Virus record (IMG/VR): IMGVR_UViG_3300044630_000903
Span: 1 to 24,854 of that record
Strand: one strand, 5' to 3'
Source: a virus
Length of the DNA stretch: 24,854 nucleotides
The notes under the pieces were generated by a model. It saw nothing but the letters and a program-made list of their open reading frames with translations. It did no database searches and was not told where the DNA came from. The position numbers and the translations under genes were made by a program. Of this stretch, positions 10,639 through 16,316 are shown piece after piece. Within the stretch, counting starts at the first letter, position 1; each line of letters starts with the position of its first letter.

Positions 10639-11049
10639 TTAAATCCTTTTCTCAGGCTCATCTGGGTGGTCAAACAGGTATGAACCCAAGCCATCGTCAC
10701 CACGGTCATATGAGTCTGTGTCATCATCTCCAAGATACTTGCTGACACCAGTGTCATAGTAGTCGTCAATGTTGGCTTGAATTTGACCACGGTTTTTTAT
10801 GACCTGTGAAATTAAAGGCGTTGCCTCAGAACCACCAAGACCTTTTGCGACTCCCTCACGATGTAAGTTAATCATATTTTGAGCCGTCTCTTCACGGTAC
10901 TCAGGTGGGATAGAACCATATAAAAACTTCTTGTTTCTAGGATTACCCATCTCATGAGCCATTAACAAGGCAAGTCGTGGGGTAGGGCGGTGCCCACCAT
11001 GACCCGTATTGGGATTACCAACTGTTCGTCCTTTATGGTCTGTTGCCAT
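10639..11049 (-). CDS. MATDHKGR-tagged hypothetical protein (136 aa)
   Basis: The first 24 residues (MATDHKGRTVGNPNTGHGGH then RPTP) match the start of the 13852-13610 gene at 21 of 24 positions, while the rest of the two proteins is unrelated. The body has a helical middle (45-95) and a very acidic Asp/Gly/Tyr-rich tail (DDDTDSYDRGDDG). Start ATG 11049 has AGGA seven bases upstream. It is the last gene of the small-gene cluster, followed by the hairpin-bearing gap. No family is recognised. The shared tag implies a shared fate or partner, such as packaging, a binding partner or proteolytic processing. Confidence 0.72.
   Translation of the reverse strand: MATDHKGRTVGNPNTGHGGHRPTPRLALLMAHEMGNPRNKKFLYGSIPPEYREETAQNMINLHREGVAKGLGGSEATPLISQVIKNRGQIQANIDDYYDTGVSKYLGDDDTDSYDRGDDGLGSYLFDHPDEPEKRI
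10990..11049 (-). repeat. 60-bp tag repeat, copy 2 of MATDHKGR module
   Basis: These 60 bases align without gaps to 13793-13852 with 52 identical positions by my count, and 23 consecutive identical bases at the start-codon end. Identity stops abruptly at the end of the tag. That fits duplication of the 5' end of a gene onto a different body rather than whole-gene duplication. Confidence 0.8.
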
Positions 11050-11058
11050 TATATTATC

Positions 11059-11256
11059 CTATCGTAGGTGTGGTTCGGGAAGGGGGAATCCAGGTGCTGT
11101 CTGAATGTTGTACTGCATCTGCAGTTCAGACTGACGCACTGTGGCAGAGGTAGGGTCAACTACTCCACCACGGTCTGGGGTCAAGGACTTGAACTTACCG
11201 TCACCTGCGCCACGGATAAGGTCCATATTCATTGAGCGAGATTCATTAACTGCCAT
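11059..11256 (-). CDS. Small hypothetical protein, 65 aa
   Basis: A short hydrophilic protein (MAVNESRSMNMDLIRGAGDG... PLPEPHLR) with no Cys, no membrane segment and no motif I know. The central part contains Asp-Pro/Gly turns and a Gln-rich segment (RQSELQMQYNIQ). It sits 18 bases after the long disordered protein gene and nine bases before the tagged 136-aa gene. The start is weakly supported (no clear Shine-Dalgarno), but the frame fills the gap exactly as its neighbours do. Confidence 0.6.
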   Translation of the reverse strand: MAVNESRSMNMDLIRGAGDGKFKSLTPDRGGVVDPTSATVRQSELQMQYNIQTAPGFPLPEPHLR

Positions 11257-11274
11257 AGTTCTATTCTACCATTC

Positions 11275-13101
11275 TTATTTCTTTGGACGGGTACTTGGTA
11301 GTCCCGTGTCGGGGTCAATAAAGACTTCCATGTTGGACTTTCTAGGAGTTGAATCCTTTTTAGGTTCGTCTTTCTTTGGCTCTTCCTTAGGCTTGTCTTC
11401 AGCCTTAGGTTTAGGCTCTGCCTTGGGCTTAGCCGCTTGCTTTTTAGTTGCTTCTTTTTTAGTAGCAGGGGCTTTCTTTTCAGTGTCAGCCTTTTTAGCA
11501 GGCTCTTTTTTAGGAGCCGCAGTCTTTCGTGGACCTTGTTTTTTGACAGGCTCTTCTTTTGTCTCTTGTTGAGCAGGCTTTTCAGGCTGTGGAATGTCAG
11601 ATGCTGGTGTTGTGGGATTGTTGTTGACAACCTGTGGGTCAACCATTGGCAACTCTGGTTTAGTTTCTGGTTGTTCAAGACCTCTGCCACGAACACGATT
11701 TGGTGCTGGCTCTGGGGTGGGGGCAGGTGTTTCAAGACCTGTACCACGCAAACGACTCGGAGGGGGTTCAGTAGGAGCAGGTTCCTCAAGACCCCTGCCA
11801 CGCAAACGACCTGGAGGTTCAGTTGGGGCAGGCTCTTCAAGACCTCTACCACGGACACGACCTGGAGGCGGTGTTGTGCCTGTGCTTACTGGAGTTCTAC
11901 CTGTTCCTGGGGGAGGGGTTACACCTGTGCTTACTGGAGTACCGCCTGTACCTGGAGGTGGAGTCACCCCTGTACTCACTGGGGTTCCACCTGTGCCTGG
12001 AGGTGGCGTTACTCCTGTTCCACGAACACGACTTGGTGCTGGCGTACCACCGCTAGTAGGGGTTGGCCTACCAGTGCTACGGGGTGGTGCGCCTACGGGA
12101 GGGGGGCTTGTTGTACCTCCACCAGGTGGGGACGCAGGGGGTGGGTTGTTGTTAATGGTTGTAGACGTGCTGTCAGGGCTGTTGATTCTAGCCGTTTGAC
12201 TTGGATTAGAAGTGTTGTCAGAACCGACAGTAGTTGGGCTATCAGTAATTACACTAGTGTTTTGTGGACCATCGCCAGAGAACATTCGGTCTCGTCTGCC
12301 ACTTGACCAATCAAGGGTGATATCTCCACTTACACTGCCATCAGTTGTACCGCCAGTAGCCGCTCCTGTGCTACCACCAGTGGTGGTTGGGGAGGTTGTT
12401 GAGGTTGCAGTAGCGGCGGCTTCTCTCTTTTCAGCACTCTGTCTGCGTCTATTAGCGTTACGCTCATCCATCTTTTTGCGCTCTTCGGGAGAGATTTGCG
12501 AAGGGTCACGGCGTGGAGCACGTGTTTTCTTAGGAGCGACTGTGGCAGTTGTAGATGTGTCTACATCTCCTGAAGTTGTGTCTCCAGAGTCACCGCTTCT
12601 AGCACTAGCATTTTGAGACAATCTATGTCCAATGTCGCCAGTAAAAGTACGACTAGATGTATCAATGTTAATGCTCTTATCTTGCTGTGAACCAGCACCA
12701 AGAACATCACCTGTGCGAACGCTTTGGTCTACTGATTGGTCACCAAACTGTACGATAATGGGCTGACCACCTCCACCAGAACCGTCTCCTCCGTCACCGC
12801 CACGGCGACCACGGCGCATACCACGAGATGAGGCAGGAGAAGTAACAGAACCCATAGTAGCGTTGTTACCACCAACGCTGTAGCGACTGTTGGAGCCAAT
12901 GCCATAGTTAGGCTGGATGCCACCGCCTCCACCGCCTCCACGAATGTTGGCAAATGGATTGGCACCACGACCACCGCTACCTGACTGACTACTCATATCT
13001 CTTGTCGGTCCTGTTGTTGGACCAGGTGAGCGAACGCCACCAAAGACACGGTTACGGCTTTCTCTTTGGGCTTGTTCTTGCCCGTCTTCCCATGTTGGCA
13101 T
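11275..13101 (-). CDS. Large intrinsically disordered repeat protein, 608 aa
   Basis: The start is ATG 13101 because it overlaps the upstream stop (TAATG); the frame extends three codons further. The whole chain is low complexity. Residues 1-115 are Gly/Ser/Arg-rich with a poly-Gly run. Residues 116-180 form a more ordered-looking segment (PIIVQFGDQSVDQSV). Residues 190-230 are basic and helical, and 230-355 are Thr/Ser/Pro-rich. Residues 358-414 are a 16-residue repeat (GTGVTPPPGTGGTPVS type). Residues 415-477 are about 17-residue repeats of RLRGRGLEEPAPTEPP. Residues 515-588 are Lys/Pro/Ala/Glu-rich like a histone H1 tail. The end is MEVFIDPDTGLPSTRPKK. No enzyme domain is seen. Candidate roles are a virion tether or fibre linker, a DNA-binding internal protein or a condensate scaffold. 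Codon pattern and coupling show it is a real gene. Confidence 0.8.
   Translation of the reverse strand: MPTWEDGQEQAQRESRNRVFGGVRSPGPTTGPTRDMSSQSGSGGRGANPFANIRGGGGGGGIQPNYGIGSNSRYSVGGNNATMGSVTSPASSRGMRRGRRGGDGGDGSGGGGQPIIVQFGDQSVDQSVRTGDVLGAGSQQDKSINIDTSSRTFTGDIGHRLSQNASARSGDSGDTTSGDVDTSTTATVAPKKTRAPRRDPSQISPEERKKMDERNANRRRQSAEKREAAATATSTTSPTTTGGSTGAATGGTTDGSVSGDITLDWSSGRRDRMFSGDGPQNTSVITDSPTTVGSDNTSNPSQTARINSPDSTSTTINNNPPPASPPGGGTTSPPPVGAPPRSTGRPTPTSGGTPAPSRVRGTGVTPPPGTGGTPVSTGVTPPPGTGGTPVSTGVTPPPGTGRTPVSTGTTPPPGRVRGRGLEEPAPTEPPGRLRGRGLEEPAPTEPPPSRLRGTGLETPAPTPEPAPNRVRGRGLEQPETKPELPMVDPQVVNNNPTTPASDIPQPEKPAQQETKEEPVKKQGPRKTAAPKKEPAKKADTEKKAPATKKEATKKQAAKPKAEPKPKAEDKPKEEPKKDEPKKDSTPRKSNMEVFIDPDTGLPSTRPKK
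11671..11859 (-). repeat. Repeat array B (RLRGRGLEEPAPTEPP units)
   Basis: Four imperfect units of about 48-54 bp inside the disordered gene each encode R-x-R-G-x-G-L-E followed by a Pro/Glu/Thr stretch. The Arg-Gly core is kept in every unit, so selection on the RG motif is likely. RG-rich units often bind nucleic acid. Confidence 0.75.
11860..12030 (-). repeat. Repeat array A (48-bp units, TPPPGTGGTPVS)
   Basis: Three near-perfect 48-bp units plus partial ends encode G-V-T-P-P-P-G-T-G-x-T-P-V-S-T. The DNA copies differ mainly at third positions, which indicates expansion by slippage or unequal recombination followed by selection on the protein. Such Pro/Thr repeats give extended, flexible linkers. 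Confidence 0.78.
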
Positions 13102-13409
13102 TATGACCACAATCCTTGCATTGAGTATCGGCTGGAACCTTCAAAGTTTCCATTCATGAAACCATTACGGAACATGACTGGTGCCCCAGAAATCCACGAA
13201 CGGTAGGACGGGGCGTACCTACTTGTGTTTAGAATGTCACGAATTCCCTGCTCTTGTTTGGCAAACCCACGTGATTCAGGGAACAACTCTTGAGGCACCA
13301 CTGGACGAATCTGTCTAATGGTGTCAGGGTCAGAGATAGCGTTCTGCAACGCCATGTCTGTGAGCATCTCCTGTCGGGATTGCCAAGGCTTATAGGGAAC
13401 TTGAGGCAT
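13101..13409 (-). CDS. Hypothetical protein, 102 aa
   Basis: Sequence MPQVPYKPWQSRQEML, a helical segment to about residue 35, a Pro/Glu region, then a Gly/Asn/Phe/Met-rich tail (APVMFRNGFMNGNFEG) ending in QGLWS. GGAAG lies six bases before ATG 13409. The stop overlaps the start of the 608-residue disordered protein (TAATG), so the pair is translated together and may interact. No family is recognised. The aromatic Gly/Asn-rich tail resembles surfaces of structural proteins, but this is only an impression. Confidence 0.68.
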   Translation of the reverse strand: MPQVPYKPWQSRQEMLTDMALQNAISDPDTIRQIRPVVPQELFPESRGFAKQEQGIRDILNTSRYAPSYRSWISGAPVMFRNGFMNGNFEGSSRYSMQGLWS

Positions 13410-13412
13410 TAA

Positions 13413-13610
13413 TTACTTCCATTGGTGTTTCATAGTTGCCATACCCCATTCATTTTCGCAAGGTTCTCCTTGCCAAGGGCTGTCATCTGAATAAAACTCA
13501 TTTTGTTTAATGCCACAAACTTCGCAGGTCTTGTTTGACCTGGCAACCTTACGGTTAGGGTGGTGTGCTTTATCTTCGGCAGATGTGCCATCGTCACGTG
13601 GTCCAGCCAT
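13413..13610 (-). CDS. MAGPRDDG-tagged zinc-finger-like protein, 65 aa
   Basis: The first 24 residues (MAGPRDDGTSAEDKAHHPNR then KVAR) match the start of the 14121-13852 gene at 20 of 24 positions. The remaining 40 residues are different and carry C29-x2-C32, C51 and H62, a plausible single zinc site (TCEVCG... PCENEW... KHQWK). The shared part thus looks like a detachable N-terminal tag fused to a small metal-binding module. The start overlaps the upstream stop (TAATG). Function is unknown. Confidence 0.72.
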   Translation of the reverse strand: MAGPRDDGTSAEDKAHHPNRKVARSNKTCEVCGIKQNEFYSDDSPWQGEPCENEWGMATMKHQWK

Positions 13611-13614
13611 TAGT
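13582..13614 (-). repeat. 33-bp identical repeat, copy 2 of MAGPRDDG module
   Basis: These 33 bases are identical to 14093-14125. They cover the TAATG stop/start junction and the first ten codons of the tag. Similarity continues more weakly through codon 24. Exact identity including wobble positions points to recent duplication, gene conversion, or selection on the DNA or RNA itself. Confidence 0.85.
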
Positions 13615-13852
13615 CTCTCCTATTTACAATAATGTCAGCAGGGTCAACGCCCTGATAACTTAAGTTTAAAACTTCATCATCGTTGTATGGGTTGCTATCG
13701 TACTTATCCCACATGCGCTCAGTGACACTTCCAATAAGATGGTCGTCATCCCACGGCATGTTCATAATGGGTTTCCACATTGGTGTAGGTTCGTGCCCAC
13801 CATGGGAGGTGTTAGGATTACCAACTGAGCGTCCTTTATGGTCTGTTGCCAT
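13610..13852 (-). CDS. MATDHKGR-tagged hypothetical protein, 80 aa
   Basis: The tag MATDHKGRSVGNPNTSHGGH-EPTP is nearly the same as in the 11049-10639 gene. The 56-residue body (MWKPIMNMPWDDDHLIGSVT... NRRD) is acidic, with several Trp and Met, and unrelated to the other. It is sandwiched between the two MAGPRDDG-tagged genes with TAATG overlaps at both ends, so the two tag families alternate. No known domain. The body might be a short binding peptide carried by the tag. Confidence 0.72.
   Translation of the reverse strand: MATDHKGRSVGNPNTSHGGHEPTPMWKPIMNMPWDDDHLIGSVTERMWDKYDSNPYNDDEVLNLSYQGVDPADIIVNRRD
13793..13852 (-). repeat. 60-bp tag repeat, copy 1 of MATDHKGR module
   Basis: Partner of 10990-11049 (52 of 60 identical by eye). 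The two copies lie 2.8 kb apart in the same orientation, with the disordered-protein gene and three short genes between them. Homologous recombination between the copies could delete or swap that segment. Confidence 0.8.
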
Positions 13853-14121
13853 TAGTAATATCCTCTCTTGAGACGCTCTTCTTTGAGCGTTTGTTGCTCG
13901 TCAATGTCTTCTTGGTCCCATGGGTCCAGTTCTTCACGACCTGGATATGATTCTTCATCTAGTTCAGAAACCTTGTCTGCGATAGATGCGGCGTCAATAC
14001 CTTGCCACATTGCTTGTTGTTGAGCAATATGCTTGTCCAAGATTGCTTCACGACTAACCTTGCGACCTTGGTGGTGTGCCTTGTCCTCAGGGGATGTGCC
14101 ATCGTCACGTGGTCCAGCCAT
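13852..14121 (-). CDS. MAGPRDDG-tagged helical protein, 89 aa
   Basis: The start is set at ATG 14121, which overlaps the upstream stop (TAATG) and aligns with the start of its paralogue at 13610; the frame runs five codons further. After the tag (MAGPRDDGTSPEDKAHHQGR) the body is charged and largely helical: an Ala/Gln-rich helix (25-50), an acidic stretch with Tyr-Pro-Gly and DPWDQEDIDEQQ, and a basic end KRGYY. No motif is recognised. It differs completely from the zinc-finger-like body of its tag partner. Confidence 0.72.
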   Translation of the reverse strand: MAGPRDDGTSPEDKAHHQGRKVSREAILDKHIAQQQAMWQGIDAASIADKVSELDEESYPGREELDPWDQEDIDEQQTLKEERLKRGYY

Positions 14122-14125
14122 TAGT
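14093..14125 (-). repeat. 33-bp identical repeat, copy 1 of MAGPRDDG module
   Basis: Identical to 13582-13614, including the TAAT junction before the start codon and the final codon choice of the tag's first ten residues. The copies lie 511 bp apart with the other tagged gene between them. Confidence 0.85.
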
Positions 14126-14375
14126 TTTGTCCCCATCCTCGTGAACCGATGTCTGCAGAACGGCGGTAGTAAGAGTTGCGAATAGAGTTGCTACGTGCAT
14201 CTTGAGTAGACATACCACCCTTACGCAAGTTGCGATAGTCAGCACGAACGTTAGGCATGTCACTGTTATTAATCATTGTGGTAGGACCAGTCGGATGGTC
14301 ATAGCCATAGCGACTGCGAATCATGGAGTCTTTTTCTTTGCTCCAGTCTCGGATTTCTGTTTTACCTTTGTCCAT
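14121..14375 (-). CDS. Hypothetical basic protein, 84 aa
   Basis: Lys/Arg-rich hydrophilic sequence (MDKGKTEIRDWSKEKDS ... SNSIRNSYYRRSADIGSRGWGQN) with many Ser, Asn and Tyr and no Cys or membrane segment. The positive charge would suit nucleic acid or capsid-interior binding, which is inference. It is coupled by TAATG at both ends to neighbours in the small-gene cluster. Family not recognised. Confidence 0.68.
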   Translation of the reverse strand: MDKGKTEIRDWSKEKDSMIRSRYGYDHPTGPTTMINNSDMPNVRADYRNLRKGGMSTQDARSNSIRNSYYRRSADIGSRGWGQN

Positions 14376-14758
14376 TATCGTGCATCCTTAAATAATCCAC
14401 TGACTGCATCTAGCACAGCATCTTTCTGAATACGGTTTTGTTCTTGCTCATACTCAGTTGGTGCCCATTCAATACCACGGTTACGGCGAGTGTGGTCAAG
14501 AGGACCAGTTGCTTCGTCATAAGAAACACCGCTTCCATAGTTGGTGAAGTCCATTGGTGACTCATCTTCAATCATGTCAACAGTTACACGTTCTCCTGTT
14601 GGAATGGAACTTCCAGGGTAGTCCTCACGTGTGTCATTAAGAACAGCGTATGAAGGGTCAAGGGCACGGACAAGTGCTGATGGACCACCTAAACGACCAG
14701 GGTGGTTTGCACGGTCTTCGTGACTCTTACTATGTACGGATGGGATGGGGCGTCTCAT
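14375..14758 (-). CDS. Hypothetical protein with degenerate HPGR tag, 127 aa
   Basis: The start is set at ATG 14758, six bases after GGAG; the longer TTG-started frame overlaps the previous gene and is rejected. The N-terminus MRRPIPSVHSKSHEDRANHP-GRLGG contains S-x-E-D-x-A-x-H-P-G-R, the same pattern as the second half of the MAGPRDDG tag (EDKAHHPNRK). It may therefore be a diverged third member. The body is acidic and mixed, with a helical end (EYEQEQNRIQKDAVLDAVSGLF). No domain is recognised. Confidence 0.7.
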   Translation of the reverse strand: MRRPIPSVHSKSHEDRANHPGRLGGPSALVRALDPSYAVLNDTREDYPGSSIPTGERVTVDMIEDESPMDFTNYGSGVSYDEATGPLDHTRRNRGIEWAPTEYEQEQNRIQKDAVLDAVSGLFKDAR

Positions 14759-14760
14759 TA

Positions 14761-15249
14761 CTATCTCCAAGCAGGCATGAGGCTTTTAAAATAAGCACGG
14801 CGGGCAGGGTTAATTTCTGCTGGTACATCATCATTAGTTGGAATCCCACGGGGTCCAACCTTTCCATCATTTGTTAAACGTACAGGCTCTGCACCTGGTG
14901 GTGAGAACTTCTTACCTTGAGATTGTAAGATAAGACCTGTGTTGTTGTTAAATTCGTTAGGCCACAGGTAATCACCAGGATTGATGCGTTCACCTTTGTG
15001 GACACCACGACTGTACTGACGAGCGTTGTTTCGGCTAAGTGTTCCTAGCAACTTATCTTGTCGGCGGTTTGCCGACATTGTGCCTAGGTAACCATCGGGG
15101 TGGACGGTATCTGGTTGAGAGCGATAGCCAGAAAGTAACTCATCTTTAGATGAGCGCCACACTGGTGCTGGTCCGTATGCTCCTGTAGGGTCAGAGTTAG
15201 GATTATCGGAAGGATTAGTCCAAGATGTGAACGTTGATTGCTGAGCCAT
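14761..15249 (-). CDS. Hypothetical protein, 162 aa
   Basis: A polar, Asn/Pro/Gly/Ser-rich protein (MAQQSTFTSWTNPSDNPNSD...) with regions GYLGTMSANRRQDKLLGTL (54-72), NNTGLILQSQGKKF (100-113) and a basic end RRAYFKSLMPAWR. No membrane segment or cysteine. The start overlaps the upstream stop by one base (TGATG). It has the feel of a structural or accessory virion protein, but no homology can be claimed. Confidence 0.7.
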   Translation of the reverse strand: MAQQSTFTSWTNPSDNPNSDPTGAYGPAPVWRSSKDELLSGYRSQPDTVHPDGYLGTMSANRRQDKLLGTLSRNNARQYSRGVHKGERINPGDYLWPNEFNNNTGLILQSQGKKFSPPGAEPVRLTNDGKVGPRGIPTNDDVPAEINPARRAYFKSLMPAWR

Positions 15250-15452
15250 CAGTAATCTTCCTCATCTTCCTGTGGACGTCTACTGTCCATAAACTTGTTT
15301 ACAGCGTGGTAAGCCGCCGCACCTGCAAGAGCACCCACTGGACCACCCATTACTTGTGCGCCAATAAGAGCGCCTGCTCCTACCCACATGGCATTACGAA
15401 CCTTGTGATGGTCCATTCCATGACCTTCATCAAAAAAACCTCTGCGAGCCAT
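15249..15452 (-). CDS. Small glycine-zipper membrane-like protein, 67 aa
   Basis: Residues 20-50 (NAMWVGAGALIGAQVMGG then PVGALAGAAAYHAV) are hydrophobic with Gly/Ala every three to four positions. This is the glycine-zipper pattern of small membrane-associated proteins, capable of one long or two short helices. The N-terminus is basic with several His, and the C-terminus is acidic (RRPQEDEEDY). GGAGG lies nine bases before ATG 15452. In a phage this could be a holin-like, membrane-anchored or ejected protein. No holin call is made because there is no lysis gene beside it. Confidence 0.72.
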   Translation of the reverse strand: MARRGFFDEGHGMDHHKVRNAMWVGAGALIGAQVMGGPVGALAGAAAYHAVNKFMDSRRPQEDEEDY

Positions 15453-15589
15453 TAGCGCAAACCTCCAGCAGACGGACCGCCTAGCAAACCACCTTGACCG
15501 CCACCGACAAGCCCAACAGGACGTGGCTGTTCCTTGGCTTTACGATACTTACCTGCAGTAGGTCGGCGTGATGGTTTACGGGTTGCCAT
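15452..15589 (-). CDS. Basic Gly-rich miniprotein, 45 aa
   Basis: An open frame from ATG 15589 encodes MATRKPSRRPTAGKYRKAKE, then Pro and a Gly-rich tail (LVGGGQGGLLGGPSAGGLR). The first half is strongly basic and the second flexible. It starts three bases after the preceding stop and ends with TAATG into the membrane-like gene. Its fit at both junctions and its exact filling of a 140-base gap argue it is translated. Possibly binds nucleic acid or the capsid interior. No family is recognised. Confidence 0.62.
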   Translation of the reverse strand: MATRKPSRRPTAGKYRKAKEQPRPVGLVGGGQGGLLGGPSAGGLR

Positions 15590-15592
15590 TAA

Positions 15593-16018
15593 CTACTGAT
15601 AGTTCCTGTCATGGTACTTAGCAGGGGTGTCTTCCATAGGAGCACCAGGAATTCCATAGTGAACTTTGGGGTCATACTTAGAAATAGTTCCGCTATGTCC
15701 TAGTTCACGACTAAATGCATAACGGTCACCTACATTCATAAGACCTGCTCTGAAATCCTCTGTGTCATGAACAACATGAGAATCTGTTTCACCACCTTCA
15801 GTTGATTCAGCAGAAAAGAAGTATGAGCGAGGTTGTCCATCACCTCCTGTTGAACCCAAGAATGTACCTACGGTGTCAACACCTCCACGTCCTTGAAGTG
15901 GGTGTGCTTGTGTGCGAGTCATTCCTTCTTCGCCATGTTTTTCTACATGAGCATTGTCTCCACGACCTGCTCCTGCTCCACCACGCATGGTTTGACGCCT
16001 ACCTCTAAATGTTGTCAT
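15593..16018 (-). CDS. Hypothetical protein, 141 aa
   Basis: The N-terminus is Arg/Gly-rich (MTTFRGRRQTMRGGAGAGRG) and probably disordered. Residues 40-120 look more ordered, with GVDTVGTFLGSTGG, SYFFSAESTEGGETDSHVV and DRYAFSRELGHSGTISKYDP. The end is His/Tyr-rich. It comes seven bases after the SpoVS-like gene and leads the run of small genes. No family is recognised. The Arg/Gly start echoes the RG motifs of the large disordered protein. Confidence 0.68.
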   Translation of the reverse strand: MTTFRGRRQTMRGGAGAGRGDNAHVEKHGEEGMTRTQAHPLQGRGGVDTVGTFLGSTGGDGQPRSYFFSAESTEGGETDSHVVHDTEDFRAGLMNVGDRYAFSRELGHSGTISKYDPKVHYGIPGAPMEDTPAKYHDRNYQ

Positions 16019-16025
16019 GATTTAC

Positions 16026-16316
16026 CTACTTAATCTGGGGTTTAAAAGAAATAGCAGAGATGGGTTCCCCATTCTCTCCCATGATGTCATCAAAGCCAAT
16101 GACAAATGACAGGTCAATTCCACGGGGAGCCACGAAGCCACGTGCAATAGCGGCGGCTTTAGCGGCTTGGTTCACGGCTGATGCGCCGATAGCCCTCATC
16201 TTAGGAGTCTGGCCTGAGTTAATGGCACGAGCCATAATAGAACCCACTGATTGGGGGTTGCTTGAGCCTGACACCTTAAGGACATCTTCAATGTTGGTGG
16301 TCAATTCTTGTGACAT
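16026..16316 (-). CDS. SpoVS-like (Alba-type) protein
   Basis: The 96-residue product aligns over nearly its whole length with stage V sporulation protein S. DVLKVSGSSNPQSVGSIMARAI (11-32) and KMRAIGASAVNQAAKAAAIARGFVAPRGIDL (39-69) keep the family's most conserved blocks: L-K-V-S, A-I-G-A, N-Q-A-K-A, A-I-A-R-G-F-V-A-P-G. SpoVS is about 86 residues with an Alba-like fold thought to bind nucleic acid or other ligands; its role in Bacillus sporulation is genetic rather than biochemical. Here it has ten extra N-terminal residues. AGGAG lies six bases before ATG 16316. In a phage it may coat DNA or RNA or act in regulation; it precedes the tag-bearing gene cluster. Confidence 0.9.
   Translation of the reverse strand: MSQELTTNIEDVLKVSGSSNPQSVGSIMARAINSGQTPKMRAIGASAVNQAAKAAAIARGFVAPRGIDLSFVIGFDDIMGENGEPISAISFKPQIK

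Follow-up and report, generated by a model that had tools for sequence, protein, structure and literature searches.

Two families of short N-terminal peptides, which we call tags A and B, head otherwise unrelated small proteins in a phage genome fragment. In related phages the same tags are shuffled among many other bodies, and tag A also occurs in the head module. Judging from the sequences, we put at roughly 50% the probability that the tags are N-terminal sorting peptides serving to dock varied small proteins, as cargo, on a part of the virion under assembly.

Tagged genes and their block

The window, meaning the whole stretch of DNA analyzed, is a 24.9 kb IMG/VR fragment with recA and polA and with whiB-type genes recognized by eye. 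Its phage is a member of a widespread group and is kin to actinobacterial phages. The tagged genes sit downstream of the DNA-replication genes recA and polA, in a gene block in which stop/start codon overlaps join several frames. The five genes singled out by a previous sequence-only reading (starting at 14121, 13610, 13852, 11049, and 14758) have the open reading frames and starts given there, all on the minus strand. Features of the block are as follows.

10639..11049, minus strand: 136-aa gene with tag B copy 2; helical body family (TPRLAQ...AQ..D.YR.GRD)
10975..11049, minus strand: tag B copy 2 (MATDHKGRTVGNPNTGHGGHRPTPR); profile match E 5.7e-18
11059..11256, minus strand: conserved 65-aa core protein (MAVNESRSMN.DL) with homologs in Streptomyces phages
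11275..13101, minus strand: 608-aa Pro/Gly-rich low-complexity protein, a conserved slot of the block
13101..13409, minus strand: conserved 102-aa core protein (VPYKPWQSR.EMLVD...SWVSGAPVMFRNGF)
13413..13610, minus strand: 65-aa gene with tag A copy 2; zinc-finger-like body (CEVCGIK...C)
13533..13610, minus strand: tag A copy 2 (MAGPRDDGTSAEDKAHHPNRKVARSN); profile match E 3.2e-20
13610..13852, minus strand: 80-aa gene with tag B copy 1; Trp/Met-rich body ending in LSYQGVDPADIIVNRRD
13775..13852, minus strand: tag B copy 1 (MATDHKGRSVGNPNTSHGGHEPTPMW); profile match E 9.5e-20
13852..14121, minus strand: 89-aa gene with tag A copy 1; two-module body (AILDKHIAQQQAMWQGIDAASIADKVSELDE and LDPWDQEDIDEQQTLKEERLKRGYY)
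14044..14121, minus strand: tag A copy 1 (MAGPRDDGTSPEDKAHHQGRKVSREA), the N-terminus of the 89-aa gene; profile match E 1.3e-19
14121..14375, minus strand: 84-aa untagged gene; body HPTGPTTM...
14375..14758, minus strand: 127-aa gene with a degenerate tag (HEDRANHPGR) and a YDEA.GP.D.TRR...EW module
14761..15249, minus strand: conserved 162-aa core protein, present in cultured Streptomyces phages and, among viral contigs, in at least 591 stretches
15452..15589, minus strand: conserved small basic core protein (RKPSRRP...GGGQGG)
15593..16018, minus strand: 141-aa gene starting with RGGAGAGRGDNAH; among relatives, its body family occurs with tag A (L158, L126, L073) and with tag B (L133)
16026..16316, minus strand: SpoVS-like gene, the upstream end of the block; its homolog in a related genome, G008, matches PF04232 (E 6.9e-20)

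The two copies of tag A (MAGPRDDGTSPEDKAHHQGRKVSR, start 14121, and MAGPRDDGTSAEDKAHHPNRKVAR, start 13610) are identical at 20 of 24 residues and those of tag B (MATDHKGRSVGNPNTSHGGHEPTP, start 13852, and MATDHKGRTVGNPNTGHGGHRPTP, start 11049) at 21 of 24, as the sequence-only reading had it. Shuffling residues 2–24 of 27 window proteins in 2000 trials gave best pairs of 6.7/24 on average and of 11/24 at most, and the best real non-tag pair among window proteins shares 7/24. Chance sharing of the tags is thus ruled out. The description of the tag at 14758 as degenerate is fair, given its weak match to the tag A profile (E 1.6e-3). The claim that the bodies are unrelated after the tag also holds: compared as protein, DNA, and translated DNA, the five bodies gave no significant mutual match, and therefore they are not frame-shifted duplicates.

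Per site, the tag paralogs differ far more at synonymous positions (pS 0.58 for A and 0.36 for B) than at nonsynonymous ones (pN 0.135 and 0.10), a pattern that indicates that the tag peptide is held by purifying selection. Over the first 29 (A) or 23 (B) bases, the two copies of each tag do not differ even at silent sites, unlike in the remainder:

13582-13610 and 14093-14121, minus strand: silent-site-identical starts of tag A
11027-11049 and 13830-13852, minus strand: silent-site-identical starts of tag B

None of the tagged proteins of the window reaches a Pfam cut-off or matches PHROGs, and for the zinc-finger-like body of the 65-aa tagged gene no homolog was found. The body of the 89-aa gene is a mosaic, its two short modules occurring separately in proteins of relatives; this arrangement was missed earlier. 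The terminal LSYQGVDPADIIVNRRD module of the 80-aa gene has weak matches in relatives, both on proteins with tag B and on proteins without a tag. In a structural model of the 136-aa gene, which is of low confidence and too weak for a fold search, the tag is disordered (pLDDT about 49) and the body helical. The 162-aa core protein has no known domain, and structure prediction gave no confident fold for it (pLDDT 48). The 608-aa protein has Pro/Gly/Thr-rich repeats and a Lys/Ala/Pro-rich C-terminal part. Searches of phage records for close DNA matches, and by tblastn with two tagged proteins, returned nothing useful.

Exchange of tags and bodies among related phages

Related contigs were gathered via RecA and the 162-aa core protein. 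Tag patterns drawn narrowly on the window sequences alone had no match in viral contigs; broader patterns matched. Proteins were assigned to tags with profiles and patterns, reduced for redundancy at 80%, and compared all-against-all by blastp; since the profiles and patterns derive from the same data and the gene caller was ad hoc, the counts are approximate. Tag A was found on about 99 non-redundant proteins in about 53 body clusters (median length 81 aa) and tag B on 49 in about 29 clusters (107 aa), so that the tags do occur with other bodies in relatives, which the sequence-only reading had suggested looking for. They are present in 45 of 49 genome groups, with up to eight tagged genes per block. 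The tags are basic and hydrophilic and the cargo mostly acidic.

Tags confined to full-length orthologs were looked for in these relatives and not found, because the same body occurs with tag A, tag B, or no tag. Both A and B are represented in at least seven body clusters, and 13 clusters combine tagged with untagged proteins. The HPTGPTTM body, for one, is untagged in the window and bears tag B in L139:7603-7899 and, in L158:8649-8936, tag A; some proteins with a VGTYLG...FSAES body have tag A, others tag B, and still others neither; a QGKDPAEIV body has tag A in L149 and tag B in L122; and the body family of the 136-aa gene bears tag A in L190:4618-4968. That the bodies of the 84-aa and 141-aa genes are tagged A or B in relatives had escaped the earlier reading. 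On these sequences, it is well supported that tags A and B are detachable from unrelated cargo.

Some N-termini depart from this scheme. An extension (M..KIYNLDEYRARK) precedes tag A in L152:8483-8803, L168:3424-3627, and L167:8495-8815. The start motif RGG..GRGDNAH, at one point a candidate "tag D", was demoted: part of it survives behind tag A in L158, and it may therefore belong to the body. Small basic Borockvirus-type block proteins (L197:9675-9866 and L194:8697-8960) contain TDKRVVGTSQNP or TDRRGHGVGDN, and both stretches faintly recall tag B. Tag A had no match in four bacterial genomes holding distant core homologs, which shows little.

Tags resemble each other more within a genome (identity 0.63) than between genomes (0.50; 0/1000 permutations), as would be expected if each lineage had its own partner. 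It is chiefly close relatives of the window phage that have the long form of tag A. Where residues are identical, codon identity is likewise greater within genomes than between them (0.52 vs 0.44 for A and 0.67 vs 0.45 for B), so part of the tag similarity could be due to gene conversion. Partner co-evolution and gene conversion may both act on the tags.

Head-module occurrences, a third tag, and possible functions

Viral contigs were also scanned with a pattern for tag A alone, without the block as reference. Of the 44 stretches recovered, 32 lie near core-block genes, 10 in a head module, and 2 in neither. The ten head-module stretches, with terminase and/or portal genes, represent about six distinct sequences (L244; L247; L258/L272; L260; L246/L261/L262/L270; L273). 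Their terminase, portal, scaffold, and capsid genes were identified by 35–80% identity to proteins of G008 assigned by PHROGs. Tag A genes are found just upstream of the portal gene in L260 and L258 and after the terminase gene in L262; in L247 the order is a tag A gene, a gene with tag C (described below) and ParB-like motifs, portal, scaffold, and major capsid protein. In G058 and G059, where the core protein is far off, there are weaker matches to tag A at about 2 kb upstream of the portal gene. Evidence linking the head-module cargo of L262 to the body of the 141-aa window gene is suggestive at most.

All head-module cases come from relatives, the head genes of the window phage falling outside the 24.9 kb record, and tag B was seen in the core block only. 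The nearest complete-looking relative, G008, is 94.5 kb long, and its two ends apparently divide a transglycosylase-like gene between them. It has a contractile-tail module with sheath and baseplate as well as terminase, portal, scaffold-like, and major capsid genes; its tags A and B are restricted to the core block, a long way from these head genes.

A third tag family, tag C (M[SA]A.[DEN]HLN..Q), which the sequence-only reading did not report, starts runs of small proteins near tail-fiber genes in the same phages:

L111:2162-4622; L199, L200, L201, L202, L203 (G008 at 78-80 kb and relatives): tag C runs

Pfam searches of 47 tag C proteins recovered eight GNAT, three Arr-type ADP-ribosyltransferase, and one ParB_N match; all three types occur among the proteins that phages have been proposed to inject (PMC5512222). 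Tags and loci cross over: the block of L012 contains tag C, and the run of tag C genes in L201 includes tag A; in L213 and L216, a tag C gene with a GNAT-like motif, a tag A gene, and the core protein follow in adjoining frames. In distant relatives, the same interval of the core block is occupied by ADP-ribosyltransferase and GNAT-like genes, and the block borders on tail-collar or collagen-like fiber genes.

The swapping of tags and bodies, together with the position of tag A beside head-assembly genes, suggests that the tags probably sort cargo into the particle. Tags A and B would then be N-terminal sorting peptides, disordered, positively charged, and about 18–26 residues long, each recruiting varied small, mostly acidic cargo to one phage component. 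The likeliest component would belong to the head or particle under assembly, for example a scaffold, portal, shell, or core-block protein. Cargo would enter or decorate the virion and probably reach the next host cell, while recombination between phages would exchange the cargo and keep the tag as its docking end. The common partner, entry into the virion, and delivery to the host are what we infer from the gene arrangements. A bolder extension is a combinatorial address code, in which the unrelated tags A, B, and C send interchangeable cargo to different parts of one particle, and the set of injected effectors is rebuilt by independent swaps of body and address; we regard this as speculative and rather unlikely.

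Alternatively, the tags could dock one partner outside the virion, for example a core-block protein or host machinery (RNA polymerase, ribosome, nucleoid), and the cargo would act in the producing cell and never in the particle. The position of the window genes downstream of recA and polA agrees with this, and tag sharing and lineage-specific tag forms fit it equally well; moreover, core proteins so highly conserved, with no confident fold, could be an assembly platform. However, tag A beside terminase and portal genes, and the core block beside tail-fiber genes in distant relatives, point to the particle, and we hold docking outside the virion to be possible but doubtful. It is less probable still that the shared starts are mainly a recombination or expression cassette, a 5' repeat providing a translation start and a short homology for body capture, with little function for the peptide. 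The nucleotide identity over the first 29 or 23 bases, the raised within-genome codon identity, and the overlapping frames would all suit such a cassette. Past the first codons, however, the DNA diverges mostly synonymously while the peptide is nearly fixed, and the core residues of tag A persist across divergent genomes despite a codon identity of only 0.44.

We consider very improbable a strict capsid-targeting mechanism of the T4 type, in which cargo enters the prohead core via the scaffold and the tag is then cut by a prohead protease. It would account for a general architecture like that of T4 internal proteins (PMC3012670, PMC9026906) and for the scaffold-like gene in a relative (phrog_1793, E 3e-4). 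Against it, the [LI]xE cleavage motif is not enriched near the tags (12% of A-tagged and 19% of B-tagged vs 22% of untagged proteins), and no prohead protease family was found in those head and tail genes of G008 that were tested.

Comparison with known systems

If the tags load virions, a simple sequence rule would predict the unannotated small proteins in the particles of these abundant phages, a cargo that is otherwise invisible to homology search, and the tags could offer a route for packaging reporters in such phages. If they dock elsewhere, they would still mark a common hub worth identifying.

The closest cultured counterparts of the block are in Borockvirus (Streptomyces phages BRock, LuckySocke, Alone3, and GiJojo), where the SpoVS-like, 162-aa, and 65-aa core genes are syntenic with it; BRock is a myovirus (PMC7453282). 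In the equivalent interval of these phages, no tag A or tag B proteins were found.

Polymorphic toxin systems (PMC3482391) likewise join a constant N-terminal trafficking part to exchangeable C-terminal cargo. Theirs are whole N-terminal domains tied to cellular secretion, whereas here the constant part is a phage peptide of roughly 20 residues, and no immunity genes were identified. The polyvalent proteins of phages and conjugative elements, proposed to be injected, share ADP-ribosyltransferase, GNAT, and ParB effector domains with tag C cargo (PMC5512222). However, polyvalent proteins are long chains with several disparate domains per polypeptide, whereas each activity here is a separate small protein with a common tag.

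The sequence-only reading had likened the tags to the capsid-targeting sequences of T4, the sole conserved part of very diverse internal proteins (PMC3012670). As in T4 IPI, IPII, IPIII, and Alt, a short conserved N-terminus precedes diverse, otherwise unrelated small cargo that varies between related phages; Alt is an ADP-ribosyltransferase, and tag C cargo includes ADP-ribosyltransferase-like enzymes. The analogy gains circumstantial support because in related phages tag A genes adjoin terminase and/or portal genes and neighbor cargo of enzyme types like that of T4 Alt. In T4, a prohead protease cuts after the tag at an L/I-x-E motif (PMC9026906). Here neither an enrichment of this gp21-type motif near the tags nor such a protease was found, as far as tested, so we do not class the tags as T4-type members. 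The phage group also differs from T4 in its three or more tag families and its many more cargo types. The likeness is one of architecture, and we claim no sequence relation. If the tags do load virions, the T4 internal-protein strategy would have an independent counterpart in kin of actinobacterial phages, with several tag types per genome.
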